A stretch of 64,000 nt of DNA, taken from assembly GCF_900182635.1 (NCBI RefSeq), contig NZ_FXTD01000010.1, positions 62,001 to 126,000 of the forward strand, written 5' to 3'. The first letter of the stretch is position 1. Each line of letters begins with the position of its first letter. Below the pieces are notes generated by a model. The model saw nothing but the letters and a program-made list of their open reading frames with translations, did not search any database and was not told the origin of the DNA. This DNA is from Halorubrum cibi (GTDB lineage: Archaea; Halobacteriota; Halobacteria; Halobacteriales; Haloferacaceae). The translations under genes were made by a program, and so were the position numbers. Shown in pieces: positions 5,047 through 50,164 of the stretch.

Positions 5047-5161
5047 GCTTCCAGCGTACGACAGGGACCTCGCTCACTTGTCAGTATCGGCGGTGAACGG
5101 CGGAGACGCACGGTAAGCCCGCCCTCCGCGTTCGAGGTCGGCCTCGGTGGGGCCGGTTCGC

Positions 5162-5818
5162 TCACTCCCGAACGACCGCGACCCGCCCCTCCGACGCGTC
5201 GAGCGCGAATCCGGCCTCCCGGAGCCACGTCGCCGCTTGTCCCTCGCCGTGGATCAGCACCTCGGCGAGGTCGTCGGTCTCGTCGATGTCGGTACCGAGG
5301 CGATGGGAGTCGACCGCGGCGAACCCCGCCCCGACGTCCGCAGCGATCCGTCGGTGGTCGAGGTACGACGCGCCGTGGTAGTCGACGCGGAACCGCGGAT
5401 GCGAGACGACGAGGGCGTTCGTGCCGCCGCCGCGACCGGGTACGACCGCGACGTCGGCGTCGCGGCCGGCCGCGAACAGCTCCCGGAGCGCCGCCGGAGT
5501 CGCGAGCGCGAGGTCGGCCATCACGACCGCGAGCGGGTCGCCCTCGCCGCCCGGTCGACGTTCCTCGAGGACGGCGTTGACCGCGTCTGTGAGTGGTCGG
5601 TCGTCGACGGTGACCGGCGGATCGAGGGGGACCGTCGGCTCGTCGGTCGGATCGAACCCGTCGGTCGCGAGAATTCGAGGACTGCCGCCGGCGTCGCCGA
5701 TCGCCGCCAACACGTCGGCGAGCATCGTCCGGGCGAACGCGGCGCGCTCGGAGGGAGAGAGGGTGTCCGCGAGCCGCGATTTCGGACGATCGGCGGAGAA
5801 GGGGACGAGGACCTCCAT
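5162..5818 (-). CDS. cofC: 2-phospho-L-lactate guanylyltransferase
   Basis: 218 residues. CofC transfers GMP from GTP to a three-carbon phosphate (2-phospho-L-lactate or phosphoenolpyruvate) to form the activated precursor of F420. It starts MEVLVPFSADRPKSRLA, the usual CofC nucleotide-binding opening, and contains VVMADLALATP (metal-binding Asp), PGRGGGTNALVV and the TDIDETDDL end motif. It is 11 bp downstream of the cetZ stop on the same strand, so the two may share a transcript. Confidence 0.92.
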   Translation of the reverse strand: MEVLVPFSADRPKSRLADTLSPSERAAFARTMLADVLAAIGDAGGSPRILATDGFDPTDEPTVPLDPPVTVDDRPLTDAVNAVLEERRPGGEGDPLAVVMADLALATPAALRELFAAGRDADVAVVPGRGGGTNALVVSHPRFRVDYHGASYLDHRRIAADVGAGFAAVDSHRLGTDIDETDDLAEVLIHGEGQAATWLREAGFALDASEGRVAVVRE

Positions 5819-5829
5819 TCGGCGGCCGC

Positions 5830-7008
5830 CTAGAACAGCGACTCGAGCTCGTCGCTGTCGTCACTGACGAGGTTGTCGAGGTTCTCGTCGCTCTCCTCGC
5901 GGATCTCGTCGAGGTTGTCCTGCGCCTCGATGGCGACTTCCTGGAGCTCCTTGATCCGCGGGACGTTCGTGACGCCCGCGAGCAGGATCACGGTGGCGAC
6001 GAAGCCCGCGCCGCGGTACGGGTAGTCGCCGCCGCGGACCTCCATCGACCCGGTCTGCTCTTCGAGCCACTTGCGACCGCGCTCGATTCCCTTCCGGTTG
6101 AGGTACTCCGGCGGTCCCGCGAGCACGAGCAACGCGCGCTCCGCGCCCTCGATCTCACAGGGGAGCGTGAGCCGGCCGAGCGCCGCCTTGCGGACGAGGC
6201 TCGTGATCCGGTTGGTGGTGTGCGCGCTGTCGAGCTCGTCGCCGCCGTCGTCGTTGCGGAGCCGCGAGAGGAGCCCGCCGGAGCTGCGCTCCTCGACCTC
6301 CTCTTCGGCGTAGCCGACCGTGGAGACGCCGCCGCCCGACAGCGTGTTGATGATCTCCGAGGAGTCGACGACGCTCTCCGCGATCTCCTGGCCCTGCTGG
6401 ATCTCGCCCGCACCGAAGAGGATCCCGAAGCGCCGGACGATCTCCTCGTTGATCTCCTCGTAGCCGCCCTGGACGGACTCGCCCGTCTTCCGCCAGGCGT
6501 CGTTGTCGAACACCATCAGGTTGTCCACCTCGCGGACGAACGTCTGGAACGATCGAGCCGCGTTCAGGGTGTAGATGCCGCCCTCGTCGCTGCCGGGAAG
6601 CACGCCGAGCCCGTAGACGGGTTCGGTGTAGATCCGCTTCAGGTGTTTGGCCAGCACCGGCGCGCCCCCGGAGCCGGTGCCTCCGCCGAGCCCCGCCACG
6701 ACGAGGAACGCGTCTACCTCGTGGACCGGGATCGAGTCGATAGCCCCCTGTACCTCGTCGATGTCCTCCTCGGCGATCTCCGCGCCGAGCTCGTTGTCCG
6801 CGCCGACGCCGTGTCCCTTCACGCGGGACTGTCCGATGAGCACGCGCTGGCCCTCGGGGACGTGTTCGAGTCCCATGAGGTCGGCCTTGGCCGTGTTCAC
6901 CGCCGCGGCGGCGCGCACGATCTCGGACCCCGTTCGTTTGTCGTACTCCAGGAACTTGTCGACGACTTTCCCACCCGCCTGTCCGAATCCGATCATTGCC
7001 AGTTTCAT
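5830..7008 (-). CDS. cetZ1: Tubulin/FtsZ-family cytoskeletal GTPase CetZ
   Basis: 392 residues from the ATG at 7008, which follows a GGAGG ribosome site and begins MKLAMIGFGQAGGKVVDKFL. An upstream in-frame start (7083) would add 25 unrelated residues and is rejected. The tubulin signature GLGGGTGSG is at about 107-114. The family controls cell shape and rod transition in haloarchaea and polymerises with GTP. The C terminus ends in an acidic tail and a short DDSDELESLF tip, as in CetZ1 proteins. The symbol rests on overall similarity to CetZ1; the exact paralogue is uncertain. Confidence 0.88.
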   Translation of the reverse strand: MKLAMIGFGQAGGKVVDKFLEYDKRTGSEIVRAAAAVNTAKADLMGLEHVPEGQRVLIGQSRVKGHGVGADNELGAEIAEEDIDEVQGAIDSIPVHEVDAFLVVAGLGGGTGSGGAPVLAKHLKRIYTEPVYGLGVLPGSDEGGIYTLNAARSFQTFVREVDNLMVFDNDAWRKTGESVQGGYEEINEEIVRRFGILFGAGEIQQGQEIAESVVDSSEIINTLSGGGVSTVGYAEEEVEERSSGGLLSRLRNDDGGDELDSAHTTNRITSLVRKAALGRLTLPCEIEGAERALLVLAGPPEYLNRKGIERGRKWLEEQTGSMEVRGGDYPYRGAGFVATVILLAGVTNVPRIKELQEVAIEAQDNLDEIREESDENLDNLVSDDSDELESLF

Positions 7009-7240: not shown

Positions 7241-8137
7241 TCATTCGACCCCCAGATACGCCGCGAGCGTGGTCATCTCCGAGGGGTCGAAGCCGAACGC
7301 GCCCGCGTCGTTGTCGGCGGTCGTGTTGTCGAACTTCAACGACCGGTACTGGTCGCCGCCCATCGGGAACCCCGGTACGGCCCCGAGCACCGTGAGCCCG
7401 ATTCGCGCCAGCGGCATCGGCAGCGGGACGATCGTGATCCCCTTCCGTTCGGCCTCGTAGACGAGGTTCGTCACCTCTCGAAGCGTCAGCGTCTCGGGGC
7501 CGCCCACCTCGTAGACCTCCCCGACGTGTTCGTCGGACTCCAACGCGGCCGCGAGCATCGGGACGAGGTCCTCGACGTGGATCGGTTGGAACCGCGTCTT
7601 GCCGCCGCCGGGAAGCGGGTACAGCGGGACGCCCGGCGCGAACATCCCCTTGAGCCGCTTCGTGAACGAGACGAACTCGCCGCCCTCGCCGAAGACGACC
7701 GAGGGCCGGAACACCGTCCAGTCGAGGTCGCTGCTCCGAACGATCTCCTCCGCCTCTCCCTTCGAGCGGATGTAGGCGGTGTCGCCGTCGGGGTCGGCTC
7801 CGAGCGCGCTCATCTGAAGGAACCGATCGGCGCCGGCCTCCTCGGCCGCTCGGACGAGGTTCTCGGTCCCGGCGCGGTGGACCCGATCGTGCATGACGTT
7901 TCCGCCCTTCGGCTCGAAGAGCGGCGAGAGCGCGACCAGATTCACCACTGCGTCGTGGCCCTCGACCGCGGGTTCGACGGAGTCGTACGCCGTGACGTCG
8001 CCGACGGCGGAGTCGACCCCCTCGGGGGTCTCCGCCGGCGACCGGGACATCGCGGTCACCTCGTGGTCGTCGTTGACGAGCGCGCGACAGAGGTACGACC
8101 CGATGAAACCGGTTCCGCCGGCTACCAGGACCTTCAT
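7241..8137 (-). CDS. NAD-dependent epimerase-like protein, complex I NDUFA9 type
   Basis: 298 residues. The N-terminal Rossmann motif GGTGFIGSYLCRAL is followed by DAVVNLVALSPLFEP and FLQMSALGADPDGDTAYIRSKGEAE, so the family Tyr and Lys are replaced by a YIRSK variant. This is the extended atypical SDR group that includes the NDUFA9 subunit of respiratory complex I and NmrA-like proteins. In haloarchaea these genes stand alone and their substrate is unknown. A 230-bp space without a gene separates it from cetZ. Confidence 0.8.
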   Translation of the reverse strand: MKVLVAGGTGFIGSYLCRALVNDDHEVTAMSRSPAETPEGVDSAVGDVTAYDSVEPAVEGHDAVVNLVALSPLFEPKGGNVMHDRVHRAGTENLVRAAEEAGADRFLQMSALGADPDGDTAYIRSKGEAEEIVRSSDLDWTVFRPSVVFGEGGEFVSFTKRLKGMFAPGVPLYPLPGGGKTRFQPIHVEDLVPMLAAALESDEHVGEVYEVGGPETLTLREVTNLVYEAERKGITIVPLPMPLARIGLTVLGAVPGFPMGGDQYRSLKFDNTTADNDAGAFGFDPSEMTTLAAYLGVE

Positions 8138-24363: not shown

Positions 24364-25447
24364 CGTCACCTCCGGTTTCGTCGCCGGTATCATCGCTGGT
24401 GTCGCCGGTGTCGTCGTCGCTTTCGTCATCGTCCGCGTCGGCGGTTCCGCCGTCGCTGCCGTCACCGTCGTCGTTCCCGTCCTCGGACGTCCCCGTTTCG
24501 TCGTCACCGCTCTCGTCGTCACCGCTCTCGACACCGTCGCCGTCGGTGGTATCGATCCCTTCGGTCTCACCGTTTTCGGTGTTCGTCGTCCCGTCATCAC
24601 CGCTCTCGTCGTCCTCGCCGTCGATCCCATCGGAGTCGTCCTCCGGTTCTGGGTTCTGCGCGTCGTCCGTTCCGTCCGTCTCGTCATCGGCGTCGTCTCC
24701 GTCGCCCTCGTCGCCGATGTCGTCGCTTTCGCTTCTTTCGTCGGGGCCATCACCGGAATCAGAGTCGTCACCGGCGTCGGAGTCATCACCGGCGTCAGCC
24801 CCGTTGCCTCCGTCTTCCCCGCCGTCACCGGCGGCGTCCTCGTCGCTTCCGGCCGTCCTCTCGTCGTTCTCGACGTCGCCGTTCTCGTCGCTCTCCGTAT
24901 CGTTCTCCGGCTTCGTCGGTTGCTCCGATTCCGTCTCGGAGGCCGTCTCGTTCGTCGATTCGTCGTCGCCGGCGGCTCCGTCGTCGGGATCGCCACCGGT
25001 GTCGGCGTCGGCATCGCTGGCGTCACTATCGCCGTCGGCGTCGGCATCGTTGGCGTCACTATCGCCGTCGCCGACGTCGTTGCCGTCTATCTCGGGGGTC
25101 TCAGCGCCTCCATCGACGGAGGTTCGGGTGGTTCCGACGCTGTTGCCCTGGCCGACGCCCTTCTTTTCACCCCGGTCGGCACCGTTTCCGTTGCCCCGAC
25201 TGGTGTCATTCTCGTCGTCACCCTCGGCCGTCTCGTTCCCGACCGTGGAGTCGTTCGTCTGCGTCGTCTGCGATCCGTTCTCCACGGAGCTCTCCTCGGA
25301 TTCGAGTTGCTCGAACTCGTCGACGCTCGCGAAGTTCCCCTGGACGGTGACCTCGTCCGAGAACACTGCGAGCGTCCCGGCTCCGCCGCCGAACCCCGCG
25401 AGTAACACGAGAACGGCGACCGTCACGACCGACGCGGGGCGGGTCAT
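24347..25447 (-). CDS. Highly acidic SipW-type surface protein with low-complexity tail
   Basis: 366 residues. One N-terminal hydrophobic segment (SVVTVAVLVLLAGFGGGAGTL) runs into LAVFSDEVTVQGNFAS, the A-x-FSDE-x-(V/F)-x-N pattern of SipW-type signal regions. There is no twin-Arg motif. The remaining 320 residues are almost only Asp, Glu, Gly, Asn, Ser and Thr in short repeats (such as DSDAGDDSDSGD and ADADGDSDASDADADTGG), so they should be disordered and strongly negative outside the cell. It overlaps the signal peptidase gene by 4 bp (ATGA). A role as a matrix or salt-binding component is inferred. Confidence 0.72.
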   Translation of the reverse strand: MTRPASVVTVAVLVLLAGFGGGAGTLAVFSDEVTVQGNFASVDEFEQLESEESSVENGSQTTQTNDSTVGNETAEGDDENDTSRGNGNGADRGEKKGVGQGNSVGTTRTSVDGGAETPEIDGNDVGDGDSDANDADADGDSDASDADADTGGDPDDGAAGDDESTNETASETESEQPTKPENDTESDENGDVENDERTAGSDEDAAGDGGEDGGNGADAGDDSDAGDDSDSGDGPDERSESDDIGDEGDGDDADDETDGTDDAQNPEPEDDSDGIDGEDDESGDDGTTNTENGETEGIDTTDGDGVESGDDESGDDETGTSEDGNDDGDGSDGGTADADDDESDDDTGDTSDDTGDETGGDDGRSA

Positions 25448-26655
25448 CGTCCCTCCTCGTCGTCGGCCTCGGCGGCCTCGGCGATCTCGTCGGGCTCGCC
25501 GGCCTCGACGACCGCCTCCGACCCGCCGTCCGCGGCGGGCGCGATCAGGGGCCGCTCGAAGATCCCCATCGGATTTCCATCGTCGGTTCCCCTCGATCCG
25601 CCGGGGCGATCGTTCTCGTGATCGTCGAAGTCCTCGAGGTCGTCACCGTCGGCGTCCGATCCGGCGTCGTCGCCCTCGGCGGGGGCGTCGCGGTCGGCGT
25701 CGCGGTCCCCGTCGTCCCCGTCGGCTCTGCCGTCTCCGCCGTCTCCGCCGTCTCCGCTGCTTCCGTCGCCCGTGTCATCTCCGCCGTCGTCCGCCGAGCG
25801 GGACAGGTCGTTGGACGGTCCCTCGCCGTCGCCGGACGTGACGAGGAGTACGCCGGCCATCAGGAGCGTCATGCCGGTTCCGACCGCGACCGCGATGGAG
25901 AGAGCGGTCTGAAGCGTGTACGCCGTGTACGCCGCGTACGGGACGAACGCCAGGAGGACGCCGACGGCCCCCTCCACCGTCCGGTTCGTCACGACGAATC
26001 CCGGCTCGTCGGCCGCGTCGGACTCGCTTTGGGCGGATTCTGTCGCGGCCGCGGCAGTCGTAGCCGTCGTCTGCGTGTCCATCGCTTCCGCGTCCGCGTC
26101 GGCGTCGACGACGGCCGATCCGGCCGCCGTCGAGTCCCCGCCGCGCCCGGTTCGAGAGCCGTAGAGGCTCCAGACCTCCGAGAGCGCGAGCAAGGCGAAC
26201 GGCAGGACGACGAGCAGGGTGAACCCCGCCGGCGAGTCGGTGAACTGGATCACGTACCCGATGTACGGGATCGAGAACGCCACCGCGCCGAGGACGTTCG
26301 AGGCGGGCACCAACGCGGAGTCCGGCCCTTCGTTGGCGTCGCCCTTCGTCTCGAAGGCGACCTCTCCGCCGGTTCCCGTCACCCCGATCACGCGGTGTGT
26401 CACCGGCACCTCGCTCTCGCCGCGGACGAACGTGATCACGTCGCCCTCGCCGATCGCCGCCGCGTCGCGTTCGTCGACGACGACCACGTCGCCGGGGGCG
26501 ATCGCGGGCGTCATGCTCGCCGTCAGGACGACGAAGCTGTACTCCGCCCCGACGACCGCCGGCACCGCGTACACCACGAAGGGCGCGACGACCGCGATCA
26601 GCAGGGCGATCCCGAGCAGGTTGGCAAAGCGTTTGAACGTGATAGGTGAGTTCAT
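25444..26655 (-). CDS. SipW-like signal peptidase I (ER/archaeal type) with membrane and acidic extension
   Basis: 403 residues. The peptidase domain covers about 1-170: an N-terminal membrane anchor, the catalytic Ser47 in VLTASMTPAIAPGD, His87 in VPVTHRVIG (His in place of bacterial Lys), and Asp106 in KGDAN. That is the Ser-His-Asp pattern of the SipW and ER group. More membrane segments follow (142-162, 228-245 and 250-275), then about 130 disordered acidic residues. It is embedded in the operon of its presumed substrates and overlaps both neighbours by 4 bp, so it is probably the dedicated processing enzyme. Confidence 0.9.
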   Translation of the reverse strand: MNSPITFKRFANLLGIALLIAVVAPFVVYAVPAVVGAEYSFVVLTASMTPAIAPGDVVVVDERDAAAIGEGDVITFVRGESEVPVTHRVIGVTGTGGEVAFETKGDANEGPDSALVPASNVLGAVAFSIPYIGYVIQFTDSPAGFTLLVVLPFALLALSEVWSLYGSRTGRGGDSTAAGSAVVDADADAEAMDTQTTATTAAAATESAQSESDAADEPGFVVTNRTVEGAVGVLLAFVPYAAYTAYTLQTALSIAVAVGTGMTLLMAGVLLVTSGDGEGPSNDLSRSADDGGDDTGDGSSGDGGDGGDGRADGDDGDRDADRDAPAEGDDAGSDADGDDLEDFDDHENDRPGGSRGTDDGNPMGIFERPLIAPAADGGSEAVVEAGEPDEIAEAAEADDEEGR

Positions 26656-28163
26656 CGTAGGTCCTCCGAGTCGCAGAGCGCGTTTTCGTCGGTAAACGTC
26701 CCGCCGACGAGTTCGTAGAGCGTTCCTCCCGATCCGTCGGAGCCGAACGCGTCTCCGATCGTAAGGACCTCCGAGCAGCTGGTGTGGATCTCCACGCTCT
26801 CCGAGGCACCTTCATCGTCGCCGTCGACGATCTCGATCGTCGTGTTCTGTCCGAGGCTCGTTCCGACGTTCCCCCACGCTTGAGAGACGTCGCTGCCGTC
26901 GGCGGTGAACGTTCCACCGGGCGCGATCGTCGCGTCCTCGAACACGACCTCGTTTCCGCCGCCCGTCCGCTGGGTGGTGACCCGGATGGTGGCGTCGGAT
27001 CCGCCGTCGTATCGGAACGTCAGGTCACGGTACCGGACGTTTCCGCCGCACTCGCAGTCGCCCGGATCGTCGTGGTCGTCATCGCCGTTCTCGCCGTCAT
27101 CGTCGACGCAGACGTCGATCTGGATGTTGCTGATTCCGGCGAGACCACCATTCCCCGGACCCTCCGGCGAGTACAGTATCTCACTCGTGTCGTTGCTCGG
27201 CGGCTCGATCGGGTACGTCTTCGTGTCGTTTCCGCCCTTGATACGGACCTCACAGAGCCGTCCGGCCGGGTCGCCGTTCGCGTCCACGAGCTCGAAGCTG
27301 ACGCCGACGGCCTCGCCGCCGTCCTTGTCCTCGACGTCGGTGACGAAGAGGTACGCGTTGCCGGCGAGTTGACCCTCGTCGATCGGGAGCCACGTCGAGA
27401 CGTCGTCGATGTCGCTGATGACGACGTCTCCGTCGATGTTGGCCTTCCCAACCGGGTCACAGTTCGGACACTCCTCCTGCGGCTCGTCACACGGTCCGAA
27501 CTCCGCGTAGGGGTTCGATCCCGCGGCGTCGTCCTCGGAGACGTGCCGGCACTGTTCGGTATAGAGCAAGAACTCGAACTCGGTCGTCCGCCCGGCCGCG
27601 GCGGCCGGCGCGTCCTCGGGAAGCTCCCAGGCGAGTTCGATCTCGATACCGTCGCCATCGGGGTCGAGACACGCGTCGCCGTCGAGGTCGTCAGCCCGGA
27701 GTCCGCCGGCGAACTCGCGGCGGAGCTCCGAGAGCGACCCGGACGGGAACACCCAGTCGTCGCCGATCTTGAGTGAAACCTCCAGCGCGTTGCCGAGCGG
27801 GTCCTGCGTCCGGGGGCAGGTCGTCGCGAACCAGAGGCGCGCCGGGTTGGTTCGAACGGAGACGTCGAACGTGACGTCGCCCCAGTCGCCGCGGTCGATC
27901 GGGTTCTCGGGCGCGTAGCTCACGGTCCCGTTCGAGACGGCACAGCCCGCGTCCCCGTTCGAATCCGAACACGACACGTCGAGTTCGACCTCGCCGGCAC
28001 CGATCTCGTTGCGCGGCAACGTCTCCCCGTCGGAGAGGTACGCGAACGTGCCCGCGCCGCTCGCGGCACCGATCGCGCCCAGTCCGCCGAGCCCGGCGAG
28101 GAGCCGGCGGCGGCTGAAGTCGGCCGGTCCGGAATCTCCTCGTCCGCTCCCGTCGGTGGTCAT
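26652..28163 (-). CDS. Tat-exported SipW-dependent protein, large Cys-containing variant
   Basis: 503 residues. The twin-Arg motif SRRRLLAGLGG (about 17-27) is followed by GAGTFAYLSDGETLPRNEIGAGEVELDV, the camelysin/TasA-type cleavage and first strand region. The first 220 residues form the beta fold ending FLLYTEQCRHVSEDDAAGSNPYAEFG. A Cys-rich joint (CDEPQEECPNC) leads to a second domain of about 270 residues (GKANIDGDVVISDIDDVSTW onward) with its own Cys cluster (CVDDDGENG, DCECGG) that I do not recognise. The ATG overlaps the stop of the previous gene and the stop overlaps the peptidase start. Confidence 0.8.
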   Translation of the reverse strand: MTTDGSGRGDSGPADFSRRRLLAGLGGLGAIGAASGAGTFAYLSDGETLPRNEIGAGEVELDVSCSDSNGDAGCAVSNGTVSYAPENPIDRGDWGDVTFDVSVRTNPARLWFATTCPRTQDPLGNALEVSLKIGDDWVFPSGSLSELRREFAGGLRADDLDGDACLDPDGDGIEIELAWELPEDAPAAAAGRTTEFEFLLYTEQCRHVSEDDAAGSNPYAEFGPCDEPQEECPNCDPVGKANIDGDVVISDIDDVSTWLPIDEGQLAGNAYLFVTDVEDKDGGEAVGVSFELVDANGDPAGRLCEVRIKGGNDTKTYPIEPPSNDTSEILYSPEGPGNGGLAGISNIQIDVCVDDDGENGDDDHDDPGDCECGGNVRYRDLTFRYDGGSDATIRVTTQRTGGGNEVVFEDATIAPGGTFTADGSDVSQAWGNVGTSLGQNTTIEIVDGDDEGASESVEIHTSCSEVLTIGDAFGSDGSGGTLYELVGGTFTDENALCDSEDLR

Positions 28164-28966
28164 TGTGACACCCCCGAGTCAGCCGAGTCAGCCGAGTCCG
28201 CCGATTCCTCGTGGTCCGGCACCGGTTCCGCGAACGGGTTGCCGTCCCACGCGCAGTCGACCGCGTAGAACTTCACGTCGAAATCGACGGAGCCGCCCTT
28301 CCCGGCGTTGCCGCCCTCGCCGATCGGGAATCTCCAGTTGAACGCGAGACAGCGGCTCTCGTCGGGTCGTAGGCAGCCGTTGTCGAGGACACCGGGATCG
28401 ACTTCGATCCCTCCGACGAGGTCGTCGTCGTCGAGTTCCGCGAGAGTTCCCGAAAAGATCCCGTCGCCGAAGGTCGGAAAGTTCGGAAAGCTCTCGACGT
28501 TCTCCGCGCCGGCACAGCCGCCGACGCCGAGGAACCCGGTGTCGTAGCGAACGGACATCTCGATCCGTTCCGCGAGCGCCTGACTCGCCGCGTCGTTTCC
28601 GATCTCCGGATCGATCTTCATCCACACCCGGACGCCGTCCGGGACGTTCTCGCCCGGATCGTCGATCCGGAGGCCGACGCTCGTCGAGCCCGCGTCCATC
28701 GGGAGGACGTTCTCCTGGTCGATGAGGCGGACCGACGCGTCGGTGACCTCGTCGCTCGGGCTCTCCCGGACGAGCTGACCGTTGTATCTGCTGCGCCAGC
28801 CGACCAAGAGCTGCGTGGGGACGTCCGACTGCGCGTAGGTATAGCTCGTGTACTGGTCCGGCGTGCTCGTCGGCCGGCCGCCGGCCATCCCGAGGGTGGC
28901 GAAGCCGACGGCTCCGATGCCCGCGAGTGCCTGCCGCCGAGTCAGATGTGTGTCTCGTTTCGTCAT
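28160..28966 (-). CDS. Tat-exported surface protein of the SipW locus
   Basis: 268 residues from ATG at 28966. The twin-Arg signal LTRRQALAGIGAVGFATLG is at about 8-26. The AYFSDE motif of its neighbours is not conserved, but the domain keeps NVPDGVRVWMKIDPE, a central beta region, CLAFNWRFPIGEGG and a degenerate C-terminal signature FYAVDCAWDGNPFAEP. The last residues are a Ser/Asp repeat (ESADSADSADSG). It is probably a divergent member of the same fold and is first in the tightly overlapping part of the operon. Confidence 0.7.
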   Translation of the reverse strand: MTKRDTHLTRRQALAGIGAVGFATLGMAGGRPTSTPDQYTSYTYAQSDVPTQLLVGWRSRYNGQLVRESPSDEVTDASVRLIDQENVLPMDAGSTSVGLRIDDPGENVPDGVRVWMKIDPEIGNDAASQALAERIEMSVRYDTGFLGVGGCAGAENVESFPNFPTFGDGIFSGTLAELDDDDLVGGIEVDPGVLDNGCLRPDESRCLAFNWRFPIGEGGNAGKGGSVDFDVKFYAVDCAWDGNPFAEPVPDHEESADSADSADSGVSQ

Positions 28967-29288
28967 TCGTGTTCCGTGGTCGGCTCCGGACGGCCGGTTC
29001 GTCGATCGTCTCCACGCGTCCTCGGTACGTATGTATGCGCCTCCTACCCAAGCGGTTCGGATACCGAACCACATTGATTGGGCCATTGAACGACCGTCAA
29101 GGGATGCCTATCAGGTAGGTCGTCCCCCGCTCTCGTCGTCGATCGTCTCCGAATCCCGTCGTCGGTCGCGTCCGTCGCGATCCGATACGGGAATCCCACC
29201 GGCGGAGTCGAACCGCCGTCTCGACCGTTCCAACCGAGGAATTCGGGTGGGAGGGGGAATCAGGTTCCGAAGAACCCGTTGTGCGTGA
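28967..29288. promoter_or_regulatory. Intergenic control region inside the SipW locus
   Basis: 322 bp without a gene. It contains a perfect inverted repeat GGTTCGG-ATA-CCGAACC at 29054-29070, a TATA-like TACATACG stretch near 29025-29035 for the leftward gene starting at 28966, and the tRNA-like element listed separately at 29194-29252. It probably starts a second transcript for the genes to its left. Confidence 0.5.
29194..29252 (-). other. tRNA-like intergenic element, site 1
   Basis: Read leftward, TCCCACC (29252-29246) pairs with GGTGGGA (29200-29194) in a perfect 7-bp acceptor-like stem. Inside are a small hairpin TTCC-TCGGTT-GGAA and a T-arm mimic GGCGG-TTCGACT-CCGCC (29217-29201) with a canonical T loop. 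No anticodon arm is present. Similar elements occur at 30927-30981 and 33740-33782, always in gaps of this locus. Confidence 0.6.
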
Positions 29289-30902
29289 TCAGGCGGTCCC
29301 GGTCGCGTTCCCTCCGTTCGTCACGTTGCCGTCGTTCGTTCCGTTCGAGTCGTCGGGGGCGTACGGATTCGTTTCGCCGTCGTTGTGGCGGCACTGTTCC
29401 GCGGCGAAGCCGATCGCGAACTCCACGGAGTCGGTCTGAATCTCGTTGCCGACCGTCGTGGGAAGTTCCCACTCGAAGCCGAAACAACGGGTCACGGAGT
29501 TGGTGAAACAGATCCGTTCTTCCGACTGTACGTTGGCGTCCAGTTCGATACCCGCTTCGAGCGCGGTCATCACCTCGCGTAGCGTACCCTCGGCGATGAC
29601 CTCCTCGCCGGTGAGGATGACCGAGGAGATCTGCGAGTAGATGTCGTCGAGATCCGTGCCGGTCGGCGAGTCGTAGTAGAGTGTGGTTCCGTTGCTCGAA
29701 CTCGCCATGTCTATGAGCGTGTTCTGGGCGGTGCTTCCGTTACTGACACCCAACCCGATCGTGAACACGGTGATTCCATCGTTTTTCGCGTCCGTTGCCG
29801 CGTCCTTCGCGTTCTGGACGTGGTCGGAACCGGCACGATCCGACTCGTTCGGCTCGCCGTCGCCGAGCAGAATGATGACCTCGTCGACGCCACTTCGACC
29901 GTTGTCGTTGAGCTCGTCGGCCGCCAGATCGACACCGGCGTCCATCATGGTGCGTCCGGCATCGGAGATCCCGGCGGGCTCGGGCTGGAGATACGTTTCG
30001 ACGTTCGAGTGGGTACTCGTGAGGCCCTGTCGGAGCTGCCCGGTCGATTCGAACGTCACGAGGCCGACTCGGTCGTTGGGGCCGAGGTTCTCGACGAAGT
30101 CCAGCGCCGCCGCCTTCGCCTGTTCCATCTTGCTCCCGGGACCGCCTCCCATGGAGCCGGAGTTGTCGATCGAGAGCATCACGTCGACGCCCTCGCTCTC
30201 CTCGTCGCGCTCTCCCTGGTGGACGTTGTCGCAGTTGTCGTCGTACCAGATCTTCGCCCGGATCGAGTCGGCGAGCTGCCCGTCACCGTCGGGGTCGTCC
30301 GTGGGATCCCCCATCTCCTCGAGCGCCTCGATTTCGGGTTCGGTGTAGCCGTTCTGGTTCTCGTCCGTGAGCATCCCGCCCATCCACATGTAACCGGGAT
30401 TGTCGTACAGGTGGGTGCTGAAGGTGACCTCGCCGTAGTCGCCGGGTTTCACGTCGCCGATGCGGATGAGCGCGTCCTCGAGGTCTCCCGCGTCGATCAG
30501 CTCGTCGCGCTGGAATCCCTCACCTTCGCCGGTCTCGGGGTCGTAGACGCCGTTCGCGCCGATGACCCAGTCTTCGGCTCCGGGGTACTCGGTCCGGTTG
30601 GGAACCTGATCGAGGAGGTACACGCCGGTGTCGTCGTCGGTCGGTTCCATGTCCTCGTCGACGAACGTGGCGTTCGGGTAGTTCTCCTGGAGCTCCCCGA
30701 GACGTCCGGGACCGCCCCGGTACGTCATCCGGTAGTCCATTTTCAGATCCAGCTCACCGGCGGTGAGCGTGTTGCCTTCGAACGACTCGTCGTCGCTGAA
30801 GTAGGCGGTCGTTCCGAGTCCTGCTCCCGCGGAGGCGACGCCCACGGCCCCGAGGCCGGCGAGCATCTTGCGCCGCGAGAGTCCGATTCCTTTGTCAGTC
30901 AT
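29289..30902 (-). CDS. Tat-exported SipW-dependent protein with inserted vWA domain (1)
   Basis: 537 residues from ATG at 30902. Twin-Arg motif LSRRKMLAGLG (8-18), then GTTAYFSDDESFEGNTLTAG (30-49), the SipW/TasA-type signature. The beta fold runs to KIWYDDNCDN near 217-226. A vWA domain is inserted at about 239-430, with MIDAS DNSGS at 246-250, the Thr region AGRTMMDAG near 315-323 and ILLGDGEPNES. The fold then resumes (RCFGFEWELPTTVGNEIQTD) and ends with FAAEQCRHNDGETNPYAPDD. The tail is Asn/Gly/Thr-rich with N-glycosylation-like sites. It is likely an adhesive or capping subunit of a surface filament. Confidence 0.82.
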   Translation of the reverse strand: MTDKGIGLSRRKMLAGLGAVGVASAGAGLGTTAYFSDDESFEGNTLTAGELDLKMDYRMTYRGGPGRLGELQENYPNATFVDEDMEPTDDDTGVYLLDQVPNRTEYPGAEDWVIGANGVYDPETGEGEGFQRDELIDAGDLEDALIRIGDVKPGDYGEVTFSTHLYDNPGYMWMGGMLTDENQNGYTEPEIEALEEMGDPTDDPDGDGQLADSIRAKIWYDDNCDNVHQGERDEESEGVDVMLSIDNSGSMGGGPGSKMEQAKAAALDFVENLGPNDRVGLVTFESTGQLRQGLTSTHSNVETYLQPEPAGISDAGRTMMDAGVDLAADELNDNGRSGVDEVIILLGDGEPNESDRAGSDHVQNAKDAATDAKNDGITVFTIGLGVSNGSTAQNTLIDMASSSNGTTLYYDSPTGTDLDDIYSQISSVILTGEEVIAEGTLREVMTALEAGIELDANVQSEERICFTNSVTRCFGFEWELPTTVGNEIQTDSVEFAIGFAAEQCRHNDGETNPYAPDDSNGTNDGNVTNGGNATGTA

Positions 30903-30926
30903 GATTGGTCCCCCGGAGGGGAACGT

Positions 30927-30981
30927 CCCACTGGCGGGTTCGAACCGCCTGATCGACCGCTCGTTCGGAGCTTCGAGTGGG
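30927..30981 (-). other. tRNA-like intergenic element, site 2
   Basis: Read leftward, CCCACT (30981-30976) pairs with AGTGGG (30932-30927). Between them are a D-arm-like hairpin GCTC-CGAAC-GAGC (30971-30959) and a T-arm mimic GGCGG-TTCGAAC-CCGCC (30949-30933). It lies in the 119-bp gap between the two vWA genes. After it, the leader of the next gene folds as GTTCCCC-TCC-GGGGGAC just before the ATG at 30902; this stem needs one G-U pair, which works only in leftward RNA. Confidence 0.6.
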
Positions 30982-31021
30982 GTAAGCGACGGAAGTCGCT
31001 CGCGTCTGGATGTTCGTCGCT

Positions 31022-32758
31022 CTATGCGGGACTGATCGTCTCGTCGGCGAACGGATTGTACGTGCCGTCGTTGTGGCGGCACTGCTCCGCGTAGAAGTCC
31101 AGGTCGAAGACGACGGAATCGCCCTGGATCTCGTTGCCGACTTCGTAGGGGAGGTGCCACTCCAACGCGATACAGCGTGTGTCGGAGTTGGGGTAACACT
31201 GCCGCCCCTCGCGGTTGCGGTCGGAGTCGAGCGGATAGCCGCCAGCGATGCCGTCGACCACGTAGTCGTCGAGGAACCCGTCCGAGGTAACGTTCGGACT
31301 CTCCGTGAGGAGGTCGTACAGCGACCCCTCGAATATCGGCTGTTCGCCGCCCGCGGTGAAGCCGATCTCCTCGGCGACGCTCGTGATCGGATCCGTGTTC
31401 GGGTCGGTCGGTCCGTTGATAGCCGCATCGATGTCGGTGTCGAGCACGAGCATGAACCGGTGGTTTCCGGGGAGCGTGCTGATCTCCTCGAGGACGTCGA
31501 CGGAGTTCGGCGGCGTCCCGAACCCGACGATCAGGTATCTGTCGACCTCTCCGCCCTCCGATCGGAGATTGTCGCTGGCCGCAGCGAGGAACTGGCTCGT
31601 ATCGACGTTGATCCCGTTCGTGATCAGGACCATTACCCGTTCATCGTCCTCGGAACATTCGGCGAGCGCATCGGCCCCCGCCTGGATCGCGTTCGGTAGG
31701 TCGGTACCGCCCTGTATCTCGTCCTGATAGTCGATCGTCTGAAGGCCCGTGGAGTCGTTGTAGCTTCCACCGTCGGTGCCGACGACGTCGTTCACGTCGC
31801 TCGTCGGCAGGAGGACGGTATCCGCGGTCGTCGTCCAGTTGGTGAGTCCGACGCTGAACGGGGCGGTGTCGCCATCGCTGCTTTCGGCTCCGTTTCCGGT
31901 GTCGAGTCGATCGACGTACGTTTCGAGCGCCTCGATCAGGAGTTTATCCTTATACTCGGTGACGGATCCCGTGGGTGCCGAACTTCCCATCGAATCGGTG
32001 TTGTCGACGACGAACTGGATACAGACGTCGCTCCCCTCGTCGAAGAAGTTGTCACAGTCGTCGTCATACCAGAGCGTGGCCTCGATCTCCTTCGCGAGCT
32101 GTGCTTCCGCCTCCGCTAACGCGATCACGTCGTCGTCGGTGAACTCCTCGCCGAGTTCCTCGGCGTACCGCTCGACGAGCGCCTCGCGTTTGGGGTCGTT
32201 CAATTCGCCGACGGTGTGTTCGAAGCCGCTCGCGTTGAGCCAGAGGTACGCCGGGTTGTCGAAGACGTGTTTGCTGATCGTGATCTCGCCGCGGTCTCCG
32301 GGCTTGACGTCGTCGAGGTCGATGACGGGGCCCACGAACTCGTGATTTCCGCTTCCGTCGGTGTCCTCGAAGCTCGCGAACTGGCCGCGGTAGGCCTCCT
32401 CGATCGCGTCCTCGTCGGCATTGGCCGGAAGTCCGACCAGCGTCGGGTCCTCCTCGAGCTGGAATCGCGTGTAGATCGGGTCCTGCCGGTCGTCGCCGTC
32501 CAGGTCGGGGTAGGCGTTGACCGGCTCCCACGTCGTGTGGTCTTCGGGGTCTTGCCCCTCCAGACCCATGTAGTAGCTCTGTTGCCAGTCCATCCGGAGC
32601 TCGACCGCTCCGGCCTCTATCGTGTTGTCGGTGAAACCCTCCTCGTCGCTGAAGAACGCGGTGGTGCCGAGGCCCGCGCCGGCGCTCGCGACGCCGATGG
32701 CCCCGAGGCCGCCGAGCAGCGTGCGGCGGGAGAGTCCCGTGATTTTCTTGTCTGTCAT
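31022..32758 (-). CDS. Tat-exported SipW-dependent protein with inserted vWA domain (2)
   Basis: 578 residues. Twin-Arg LSRRTLLGGLG (9-19) and GTTAFFSDEEGFTDNTIEAG (31-50) open the protein. The beta fold contains DDVKPGDRGEITISKHVFDNPAYLWL and reaches EATLWYDDDCDN near 227-237. A vWA domain follows directly (about 246-445) with MIDAS DNTDS at 252-256, a Thr variant of DxSxS, and GGTDLPNAIQAG as the second metal loop. The fold then resumes (RCIALEWHLPYEVGNEIQGD) and ends FYAEQCRHNDGTYNPFADE. The insertion point is the same as in the gene at 29289, so this is a paralogue. Confidence 0.82.
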   Translation of the reverse strand: MTDKKITGLSRRTLLGGLGAIGVASAGAGLGTTAFFSDEEGFTDNTIEAGAVELRMDWQQSYYMGLEGQDPEDHTTWEPVNAYPDLDGDDRQDPIYTRFQLEEDPTLVGLPANADEDAIEEAYRGQFASFEDTDGSGNHEFVGPVIDLDDVKPGDRGEITISKHVFDNPAYLWLNASGFEHTVGELNDPKREALVERYAEELGEEFTDDDVIALAEAEAQLAKEIEATLWYDDDCDNFFDEGSDVCIQFVVDNTDSMGSSAPTGSVTEYKDKLLIEALETYVDRLDTGNGAESSDGDTAPFSVGLTNWTTTADTVLLPTSDVNDVVGTDGGSYNDSTGLQTIDYQDEIQGGTDLPNAIQAGADALAECSEDDERVMVLITNGINVDTSQFLAAASDNLRSEGGEVDRYLIVGFGTPPNSVDVLEEISTLPGNHRFMLVLDTDIDAAINGPTDPNTDPITSVAEEIGFTAGGEQPIFEGSLYDLLTESPNVTSDGFLDDYVVDGIAGGYPLDSDRNREGRQCYPNSDTRCIALEWHLPYEVGNEIQGDSVVFDLDFYAEQCRHNDGTYNPFADETISPA

Positions 32759-32806
32759 GTTTGTGTGATATGAATGGGGAGATTCCCCCGTCGGTCAGGT
32801 CTTCGT

Positions 32807-33715
32807 TCAGTTCCCGCCGTCGTCACCGGAGACGTCGCTCTCGTTGGCCGTATCGTCGCTCTCCGCCTCCTCCGCGAACGGGTCGTCGTTGTGGCGGCAC
32901 TGCTCGGCCGCGAAGTGGACGTCGCCGCTGAAGGAAGCGCCCTGGACGAGGTTGCCGGGAGACATCGATTCCGTGATATCGAAGGAAGTTCCGTCGACTG
33001 CGACCTCCTCGCCGATGTCCCCGTGCGAGGGTAAGTAGAGGTAGACGCAGACCTCGACGGAGTCGGCCGCCAGCTCCGCGCCCTCGACGTCGGACTCACA
33101 GGGGAGGTGACAGTACTCGACGACCGGCTCGTCGTTTTCGACGCCGGCGTACGCGTGGATCAGTCCGCCCTCGTCCCACTCGTCGATGAGTTCGCCGAGG
33201 GTGCCCTCGAAGACGATCTCTTCGCTGTCGCCCGCCTGCTGGTCGTCGATCGTGACGACCGCGAGCATGTACTCGCTGAGCAGACCGGAGGCGTCGACGT
33301 GGTCCACACCGTTCTGGTTGCCCGTCGACTCGTCGCCGTCGAGCGTGATCTGGACGTAGCCGGGGTTGTGTTTCACGCAGACGTCCCAGCAGTACTTGTA
33401 GGAGTCGCCGGGCTTCGCGTCCGTGATGTCGAGGAAGCCGTCGACGACTTCGATCGTGGCGTCGTCCTCTTGGGCCGCAGCCAGCATCGCGTCGAACGTC
33501 TGTTCGTCCGGCCCGATCCCGTCTTGGTCGACGACGTGGGTCGACTGCGTGACTTCGAGCTCGAACTGCCCCGCGGTGATCGTGTTGTTCTCGAAGCTCT
33601 CCTCGTCGCTGAAGTACGCGGTCGTCCCAAGGCCCGCACCGGCGGAGGCCACGCCCATCGCCCCGAGCCCGACCAGCATCTTACGCCGCGAGAGTCCGAT
33701 TGTATCGTTTTCCAT
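32807..33715 (-). CDS. Tat-exported SipW-dependent surface protein
   Basis: 302 residues. Twin-Arg LSRRKMLVGLG (8-18) and GTTAYFSDEESFENNTITAG (30-49) give the TasA/camelysin-type start. A single beta fold follows with DAKPGDSYKYCWDVCVKHNPGYVQI, a central EIVFEGTLGELIDEWDEGG and an unusual C-terminal FSGDVHFAAEQCRHNDDPFAEE. There is no vWA insertion. Six Cys residues could form disulfides. The leader between this gene and the one before contains tRNA-like site 3 and a TCCCC-ATT-GGGGA hairpin. It is a likely main filament subunit. Confidence 0.8.
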   Translation of the reverse strand: MENDTIGLSRRKMLVGLGAMGVASAGAGLGTTAYFSDEESFENNTITAGQFELEVTQSTHVVDQDGIGPDEQTFDAMLAAAQEDDATIEVVDGFLDITDAKPGDSYKYCWDVCVKHNPGYVQITLDGDESTGNQNGVDHVDASGLLSEYMLAVVTIDDQQAGDSEEIVFEGTLGELIDEWDEGGLIHAYAGVENDEPVVEYCHLPCESDVEGAELAADSVEVCVYLYLPSHGDIGEEVAVDGTSFDITESMSPGNLVQGASFSGDVHFAAEQCRHNDDPFAEEAESDDTANESDVSGDDGGN

Positions 33716-33739
33716 GATGTGTCATCCCCATTGGGGAAG

Positions 33740-33782
33740 TCCCACCGACGGAGTCGAACCGTCGTAACGCGCCCGCGTGGGA
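33740..33782 (-). other. tRNA-like intergenic element, site 3 (minihelix form)
   Basis: Read leftward, TCCCAC (33782-33777) pairs with GTGGGA (33745-33740), enclosing a 13-nt linker and the T-arm mimic GACGG-TTCGACT-CCGTC (33763-33747). No D-arm hairpin is seen, so it is a minihelix of acceptor plus T arm. It stands in the 94-bp gap between the first and second genes of the locus. Confidence 0.58.
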
Positions 33783-33809: not shown

Positions 33810-35174
33810 TCAGCGGAAGTCGATCCCCATCCAGTCTTGCGTGGTGTAGTCGCCCTCAGAGCCCTCGAATCGGACGTTCCCGGTCACAGTCACGCCAGTG
33901 GTCGTGTCCACGCCCGGAATGGCGAGGTACATCGCGCCACCCGAGGAACTGACCATCGACGGCGAGGCGGGAGACCCGTTCACTTGAACGTCTTTAACGA
34001 CGGTTTCGACGCCGTTCCCGCTCGCACTGTACGCAGTGAGTGCGACGTCGACGGTCGACGGGACGCCACCCTGCCACTCCGGATCGCCGGTGGCTGAACC
34101 GTTCGCCGTGCCGTCGGTGACATCAGTGTCAACTACGGTCCGACCGTTGATCTCGAGCGAGGCCGTGGCGGGTGAACTGCCGGTGTCGATCTGAGCGACG
34201 AACCCGACGTCCTGGTTCGCGGGGAATACGTCTCCGAGGTTGCTACCGAACACGTCCTGGTCTTCGACGCCTGGGCTGTCACCGTGGACCTGGATCTCGC
34301 CGCGTCCGGATCCACCGCGAGCGAGTGCCTGCATGTTCAGCGCCTTCTCGAAGGAGATCGACGAGAACCCGTCACCCGTCGCGTACGGGCTCGCCGGGTT
34401 CGCGTTGTGGCGTTCCTGTTCCGCGTAGAACTCGAAGTCGAACTCCACGGCGTCGGTCTGGATCTCGTTTCCGACCTCGGTGGGGAGCACCCAGTCGATA
34501 CAGAGGCACGGGCCCTGCTGGGTGCTTCCGTCCTCGCTGGGCGGGTACGCGCCGGAGTCAGTCCCGCCGTCGACGAAGAATCCGAACTCGAGATCGTCCG
34601 CGAGGTCCGCGAGCGTGTACCCCTCCGGGTTGTTCATCTCACGGATCACGGTGTAATCCTCCGTTTCCGTGTCGTATTCGCAGTACGAGACCGTGACCAG
34701 AATCGACTCGCTCAGTTCACCCTCCCCCTCGCCGTCGTTCGGCGAACCGATCGTCCCGGCTCCGGTAGCGTCATCTTCCGCCTCCGGCTCGGTTTGGCCG
34801 TTCTCGTAATCGATCGCTCCGCTTTCGCTACCGATCCAGAGCCACGCGGGGTTGTCGACGACCTTCGGACAGAACACCAATTGGCCGCTGTCGCCGGGTT
34901 TGACGTCGGAGAGTTCATATGAGTAGTCGGAGGGCATCCCGTTGATCGTGCCCGAATCGCCGCCGCTTCCCAGACGGTTACCCTGATCATACGAAGTCTC
35001 GTAGTCGACGATCAGGTCGAGTTCGCCCGCGGTGAGCGTGTTGTCGGTGAAGCTCTCCTCGTCGCTGAAGTACGCCGTCGTTCCGAGTCCCGCACCCGCG
35101 GAGGCCACGCCGATCATGCCGAGGCCGCCGAGCATCTGCCGCCGCGAGAGTCCGAAGTTGTTGTTATCGTCCAT
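33810..35174 (-). CDS. Tat-exported SipW-dependent protein with extra C-terminal beta domain
   Basis: 454 residues. Twin-Arg LSRRQMLGGLG (9-19), then GTTAYFSDEESFTDNTLTAG (31-50). The first domain shows SDVKPGDSGQLVFCPKVVDNPAWLWIG, then CIDWVLPTEVGNEIQTD and FYAEQERHNANPASPYATG, where the Cys of the family motif is replaced by Glu. A second domain of about 185 residues (from SSISFEKALNMQALARGG) is rich in beta-type repeats and has no recognised family. It is the first gene after the main promoter and probably the most expressed surface subunit. Confidence 0.8.
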   Translation of the reverse strand: MDDNNNFGLSRRQMLGGLGMIGVASAGAGLGTTAYFSDEESFTDNTLTAGELDLIVDYETSYDQGNRLGSGGDSGTINGMPSDYSYELSDVKPGDSGQLVFCPKVVDNPAWLWIGSESGAIDYENGQTEPEAEDDATGAGTIGSPNDGEGEGELSESILVTVSYCEYDTETEDYTVIREMNNPEGYTLADLADDLEFGFFVDGGTDSGAYPPSEDGSTQQGPCLCIDWVLPTEVGNEIQTDAVEFDFEFYAEQERHNANPASPYATGDGFSSISFEKALNMQALARGGSGRGEIQVHGDSPGVEDQDVFGSNLGDVFPANQDVGFVAQIDTGSSPATASLEINGRTVVDTDVTDGTANGSATGDPEWQGGVPSTVDVALTAYSASGNGVETVVKDVQVNGSPASPSMVSSSGGAMYLAIPGVDTTTGVTVTGNVRFEGSEGDYTTQDWMGIDFR

Positions 35175-50089: not shown

Positions 50090-50164
50090 GGGCGCTTAGC
50101 TCAGTCTGGATAGAGTGCTTGGCTTCGGACCAAGTTGTCGCGGGTTCAAATCCTGCAGCGCCCA
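50090..50164 (+). tRNA. tRNA-Arg (anticodon UCG)
   Basis: Complete cloverleaf: acceptor GGGCGCT/AGCGCCC, D stem GCTC/GAGT, anticodon stem CTTGG/CCAAG with loop CTTCGGA (anticodon TCG in DNA, reading CGA), 5-nt variable loop, T arm GCGGG-TTCAAAT-CCTGC, discriminator A at 50164. No CCA is encoded, so it is added after transcription. It is the only clear tRNA gene in the window. Confidence 0.97.

Follow-up and report, generated by a model that had tools for sequence, protein, structure and literature searches.

We describe a family of tRNA-like elements (TLEs) in haloarchaea, starting from a 64,000-nucleotide (nt) stretch of the Halorubrum cibi genome (contig NZ_FXTD01000010.1, positions 62,001 to 126,000; hereafter the window), in which three such elements, E1, E2 and E3, lie in the gaps of a leftward-read operon for SipW-type secreted proteins. 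The family is haloarchaeal, and its matches are either the known t-elements that precede 5S rRNA or TLEs in operons encoding SipW-dependent (TasA/camelysin-like) secreted proteins. The best explanation, drawn by analogy with the 5S t-element, is that the TLEs act as intercistronic t-elements, and it is likely that tRNase Z, probably together with RNase P, cuts the polycistronic SipW/TasA-like mRNA at these sites.

Three tRNA-like elements between the genes of a SipW-type operon

Each of the three elements sits on the minus strand in a gap between leftward-read genes, and in minimum free energy (MFE) folds each forms an acceptor-like stem that runs on into a T arm. E1 (29194..29252), 36 nt past the stop codon of the gene at 29289-30902, combines a 7-bp acceptor (TCCCACC/GGTGGGA) and a D-arm-like hairpin with the T arm GGCGG-TTCGACT-CCGCC. 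E2 (30926..30982), between the genes at 31022-32758 and 29289-30902, also has a D-arm-like hairpin, with an acceptor of 6 bp plus a terminal C.A, the T loop TTCGAAC, and a 3' end 23 nt ahead of the ATG. The short E3 (33740..33782), between the genes at 33810-35174 and 32807-33715, comprises a 6-bp acceptor, a GG-containing linker and a 6-bp T arm with the loop TTCGACT. The sequence-only reading of this DNA had placed E1 and E3 exactly and had drawn E2 one base too short at each end; the acceptor-like stems of 7, 6 and 6 bp and the canonical T loops that it described are present on this strand in all three, and the folds, ARAGORN and Rfam bear out its remark that none has an anticodon arm. The common flanks that it saw around the D-arm-like hairpin of two elements correspond to the pattern CGA-A-[4-bp stem]-(C)GG-TCG shared by E1 and E2, where the inner stem of this middle hairpin is compensated between the two (TTCC/GGAA vs GCTC/GAGC).

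A structural scan of the window, requiring a 5/5 paired T stem, a TTCRANY loop, at least six Watson-Crick acceptor pairs and a linker of at most 30 nt, returned E1, E2 and E3 as its sole three full-form matches, where 100 dinucleotide shuffles gave 0.11 matches per shuffle and at most 1. The exact T-arm/acceptor string is likewise confined to these sites within the window. Neither ARAGORN nor Rfam, at gathering level and at E values up to 10, assigned a tRNA or other family to E1-E3. Their folding energies are unexceptional relative to shuffles (z of -0.6 for E1 and -1.0 for E3) and do not discriminate; the case for the elements is therefore one of form, position and conservation, not of stability.

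A structurally conserved haloarchaeal family

A covariance model (CM) built from E1-E3 (R1) was run on haloarchaeal genomes, as the sequence-only reading had proposed, and a conserved RNA family was found. Within its own genome R1 gave strong scores for E1-E3 only, with weak matches in a second SipW cluster, located on a different contig. Other genomes of the genus yielded same-strand series of significant matches at intervals of 1.5-3 kb, almost all of them in gaps between SipW-type genes. R1 also found the 5S t-elements of loci L066 and L068, and a second model whose training set includes these two (R2) found further 5S copies in other genomes, such that one model detects both kinds of element. 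R2 has matches in 101 of the 245 genomes of the order and, in a sample of 197 genomes from the phylum, none beyond the order. A search for the exact T-arm/acceptor string returned 102 DNA stretches across 84,980 species; among the matches listed, only two carriers are not haloarchaeal (a Pediococcus and a Spirochaetes metagenome-assembled genome), and the genera include Halorubrum, Halobellus, Halobacterium, Natronomonas, Halomicroarcula, Natronococcus and many more. The conserved family spans at least 28 genera and 7 families, and of the 40 genomes that have three or more SipW-type genes, 34 carry matches.

The pairing is conserved along with the sequence. Across 140 distinct sequences, 95% of pair cells hold standard pairs and 148 pair cells are doubly changed, against 40.5 in shuffles, with compensatory changes in all helices; every slid-structure control is at most 62% paired. 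The sequence-only reading had staked its proposal on compensatory changes in homologous loci, and strong covariation was found there. The T stem is fixed by its loop alone, yet G-C to A-U swaps occur in several genera: its second pair is G-C in 131 copies, A-U in 36 and C-G in 5, with G-C and A-U each represented in at least seven genera. Linkers of short forms contain GG in 96 of 100 cases, as in the D loop, and this GG may contact the T loop. When the element is folded alone, the acceptor has a mean pairing probability of 0.86, compared with 0.04 once its letters are shuffled.

Position within SipW-type clusters

The genomic context of 186 R2 matches was assessed in fetched loci, from which many 5S-like matches had been excluded, so that the proportions are not representative of all genome-wide matches: 129 immediately precede a SipW- or AFTSV-type gene, a further 44 fall within the same neighbourhoods, 9 lie ahead of 5S rRNA and 4 belong to neither setting. 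The matches of L163, L117, L153 and L164 lack a SipW neighbour, that of L153 being a true tRNA-Lys. Of the gaps between SipW-type genes, 112 of the 130 that measure 60-200 nt hold an element and none of the 36 below 60 nt does; first-gene leaders have one in only 5 of 72 cases (Fisher p = 3e-30 for the positional bias); these loci were chosen for containing an element, and position within the cluster was not a selection criterion. Element 3' ends typically lie 20-26 nt upstream of the start codon, most often at 22-24 nt.

Downstream of the elements the arrangement is equally regular. In 107 copies, the 3' strand of the acceptor is followed by one free base and then by a short hairpin, TTCCCC..GGGGA, 0-3 nt from the element end, which starts at the predicted tRNase Z cut or within ~2 bases of it. 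The CCC..GGG order is found in 95 of these 107 spacers vs 6 of 72 first-gene leaders, and a spacer stem with at least four G-C pairs in 66% vs 6% of shuffles. In the window, MFE folds place a 5-bp hairpin (TCCCC-AAT-GGGGA; 33725..33737, minus strand) just past E3, where the following mRNA is predicted to acquire its 5' end, its G-rich, Shine-Dalgarno (SD)-like 3' arm 9 nt before the ATG at 33715, and a 7-bp hairpin (GTTCCCC-TCC-GGGGGAC; 30908..30924, minus strand) just past E2; a long hairpin of similar type, with an outer 6 bp of TCCCGT/ACGGGA (29154..29192, minus strand), starts one base past E1.

Upstream of the elements, no AT-rich region of the TATA box/B recognition element (TATA/BRE) kind was found: TATA-like matches occur in 6 of 107 copies, and the AT content is flat at ~0.35, vs 0.38-0.48 at 50-150 nt before first genes. 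On these two results, the reading of each downstream gene as a separate transcription unit with an independent promoter was rejected.

Proposed cleavage and its alternatives

In Haloferax, tRNase Z processes the t-element of 5S rRNA (PMC4326828), and in vivo RNase P and tRNase Z cut both ends of artificial t-elements that flank a CRISPR RNA (crRNA) (PMC4946936). The H. cibi genome encodes both enzymes, and together with these precedents this makes mRNA cutting at each element the most likely mechanism, by analogy with the experimentally processed Haloferax element. Processing sites that separate the messages of the operon, as the sequence-only reading had it, are thus the explanation best supported by the 5S t-element architecture, the placement in SipW intercistronic gaps, the covariation and the hairpin at the predicted cut.

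Each element would then function as a minimal tRNA mimic, with its acceptor stacked on the T arm and a GG linker or small hairpin replacing the D and anticodon arms. The acceptor/T-arm half of tRNA is what tRNase Z recognises, and this enzyme would cut past the unpaired base that follows the 3' strand of the acceptor, and RNase P would probably cut the 5' side, releasing a stub of 39-60 nt. The downstream mRNA would start at, or a few bases from, the CCCC-GGGG hairpin, ~23 nt before the start codon, and the hairpin may shield the new 5' end and offer its SD-like G-rich arm. The purpose may be that every abundant fibre-type subunit has a stable mRNA to itself, with the tail of the operon (the DUF7467 protein and the SipW peptidase) left overlapping and coupled.

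Several observations weigh against this interpretation. E1 lies 227 nt ahead of the ATG at 28966, not 23 nt; six SipW-rich genomes lack any match (G034, G189, G227, G177, G205 and G258); and long gaps in locus L134 carry no element. An alignment fitted to the CM is biased in favour of the structure in the model; given a free MAFFT alignment, RNAalifold found the T arm and not the acceptor. The latter arises because linker length varies and MAFFT misplaces the 5' acceptor strand of short forms; CM-fitted alignments with slid controls were used in its place. Secondary-structure prediction of the gaps, another suggestion of the sequence-only reading, gave a divided answer: the elements fold alone, but with the whole leader the acceptor probability falls to 0.43, and competing pairs with the downstream hairpin are often preferred. 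Moreover, in one Halorubrum subclade the element of one gap has the loop TTCGCGA, such that the canonical T loop is lost and the element kept. Holzle and colleagues reportedly predicted further Haloferax TLEs in 2012 and saw no in vitro cleavage of those that they tested, and resemblance alone is therefore no guarantee of cutting.

It is unlikely that the elements instead work uncut, as cis-regulatory structures in which the tRNA mimic binds a tRNA-binding protein or modification enzyme, gates the SD-like arm and controls translation of the internal genes. The fixed spacing to the start codon, the SD-like arm within the hairpin and the predicted competition between acceptor and leader pairing would all suit such control, but elements are almost absent from first-gene leaders despite the same protein type, their form is identical to that of the 5S t-elements, whose role is processing, and the hairpin starts near the predicted cut. 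Less probable again is that they mainly set 3' ends or attenuate transcription, blocking 3' exonucleases or polymerase and protecting the upstream mRNA, with the downstream genes self-started. The 40 nt upstream of the elements are moderately hairpin-rich (58% vs 32% of shuffles), and E1 follows the upstream stop closely, at a long distance from the next start, in keeping with this idea; against it stand the missing AT-rich or TATA-like signal, the lack of a T-run past the element and the narrowly constrained distance to the downstream start. Paralogous genes in tandem, with a T arm that matches the tRNA consensus exactly, might recall functionless relics of tRNA genes or att sites copied with tandem gene duplication, a reading with scarcely any probability left, contradicted as it is by covariation in all helices, a positional bias that makes elements rare in first-gene leaders and absent from short gaps, retention across so many genera and families, and the lack of any tRNA match in Rfam or ARAGORN.

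Cleavage by tRNA enzymes is accordingly the reading that we prefer, and with less assurance we lean towards a broader form of it: that haloarchaea possess a dedicated, order-wide tRNA-punctuation of mRNAs, in which a cassette of tRNA mimic and hairpin between SipW/TasA-like and AFTSV-type subunit genes allows tRNA enzymes to cut and cap the messages and tune stoichiometry, some genera having almost leaderless messages.

The surrounding operon and variant forms

The genes around E1-E3 are all read leftward on the minus strand. The first gene of the cluster (33810..35174) encodes a SipW-type signal peptide (TIGR04088) with a weak camelysin/M73 match, and its leader contains no TLE. It is followed beyond E3 by a second gene of the same description (32807..33715), by a 48-nt gap that holds no TLE (32759..32806), and by SipW-type secreted protein genes with a VWA-like domain (31022..32758) and a VWA domain (29289..30902), between which E2 lies. 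Downstream of E1 come a gene for a Tat-like secreted protein (28160..28966), a SipW-type gene (DUF7467; 26652..28163) that overlaps its neighbour by 4 nt and has no TLE, and a gene for a SipW-like signal peptidase I (25444..26655). The transcription order is thus SipW-type secreted proteins, Tat-like protein, DUF7467 SipW-type protein and SipW-like signal peptidase, and TLEs fill three of the four gaps among the first five genes and are absent from the overlapping 3' genes. An ordinary tRNA-Arg gene lies at 50090-50164 on the plus strand of the window. The second SipW-type cluster of this genome (L276; G000:C3:60001-76000) has elements at 7716-7778 and 5932-5984 in its two gaps, one good and one degenerate.

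Variant forms were also observed. The TTCGCGA variant occupies one orthologous gap in Halorubrum; its acceptor and middle arm are retained, its T stem is extended and its GC content is ~80%. Its copies are at L042 11002-11056, L052 8809-8863, L056 8783-8837, L058 10299-10353, L063 381-435, L046 10470-10526, L054 9890-9946, L060 9051-9107 and L057 2707-2761. As a natural T-loop mutant, it is useful for probing tRNase Z dependence. Long forms of 85-90 nt (L043 11615-11704, L047 8563-8650, L055 7779-7865 and L050 8668-8752) have a further two hairpins in the region linking acceptor to T arm and approach a cloverleaf. In Haloprofundus-type and some other loci the predicted cut falls 4-8 nt before the ATG, which would leave a nearly leaderless mRNA; the elements at L106 6438-6477, L128 7229-7268, L168 6085-6125 and L169 6685-6725 end 5-9 nt before the ATG. 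The gaps of L134 are ~300 nt long and may hold a different intercistronic structure. In the Pediococcus carrier (P. acidilactici; L181, ~5154-5197, minus strand), a low-GC bacterium, a GC-rich sequence with the tRNA-like form of the TLEs lies between two genes, ~35 nt before an ATG; it is not called as a tRNA and may be the remnant of an att site from a tRNA gene.

Relation to known systems and significance

The TLEs share with haloarchaeal 5S t-elements an acceptor stacked on the T arm, a TTCGANY loop, a GG-bearing linker (TGG in L066 and L068), the absence of an anticodon arm, and one free base ahead of an RNA whose 5' end is formed. In the 5S t-elements this one-base spacing leads to 5S rRNA, and the Rfam 5S match in the H. 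cibi genome starts within ~1 base of the analogous position. In contrast to them, TLEs lie between protein genes, several per operon, often with an extra D-arm-like hairpin or two hairpins, and are followed by the CCCC-GGGG hairpin and a start codon, not by 5S rRNA; cleavage is known for the 5S type and predicted here. The 5S t-element of the same genome (L277, ~1173-1244) has an additional hairpin in its middle and scores below the model threshold.

With tRNA genes the TLEs have in common the acceptor stem, the T arm and the T-loop consensus. Unlike them, they lack an anticodon arm, a full D arm and an encoded CCA, and are missed by ARAGORN and by the Rfam tRNA model. RNase P substrates embedded in longer transcripts are represented by the mascRNA of MALAT1 and by bacterial intercistronic RNase P sites, where a tRNA-like fold within the transcript is cut by tRNA enzymes; compared by description only, these are neither archaeal nor a repeated intercistronic series. 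In plant mitochondria, t-elements and tRNA punctuation set mRNA termini through intergenic tRNA-like structures and RNase Z/RNase P-type cutting (PMC8003010). Those t-elements are scattered, individual and of an unrelated lineage, whereas the TLEs are one homologous-looking family in one operon type, found at haloarchaeal genomic loci with no sign of common descent; the analogy is functional only.

A paper on the biofilm proteome of Halorubrum lacusprofundi does not mention SipW or camelysin proteins. To our knowledge, and in the literature searched, processing of archaeal mRNA by tRNA enzymes was previously confined to the 5S t-element and engineered constructs. The t-element itself is known; what is new is its apparent natural use on mRNAs throughout a lineage, tied to the SipW-type operons of haloarchaea. 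If true, this would constitute a natural and repeated use on mRNAs; it would offer hundreds of sites for testing, at which RNA ends are predicted to the base, and it would supply ready-made processing cassettes for haloarchaeal genetics. It would also explain how separate, presumably unequal, amounts of fibre-type proteins are made from one operon, and would link the activity of tRNase Z and RNase P to the biology of the cell surface.

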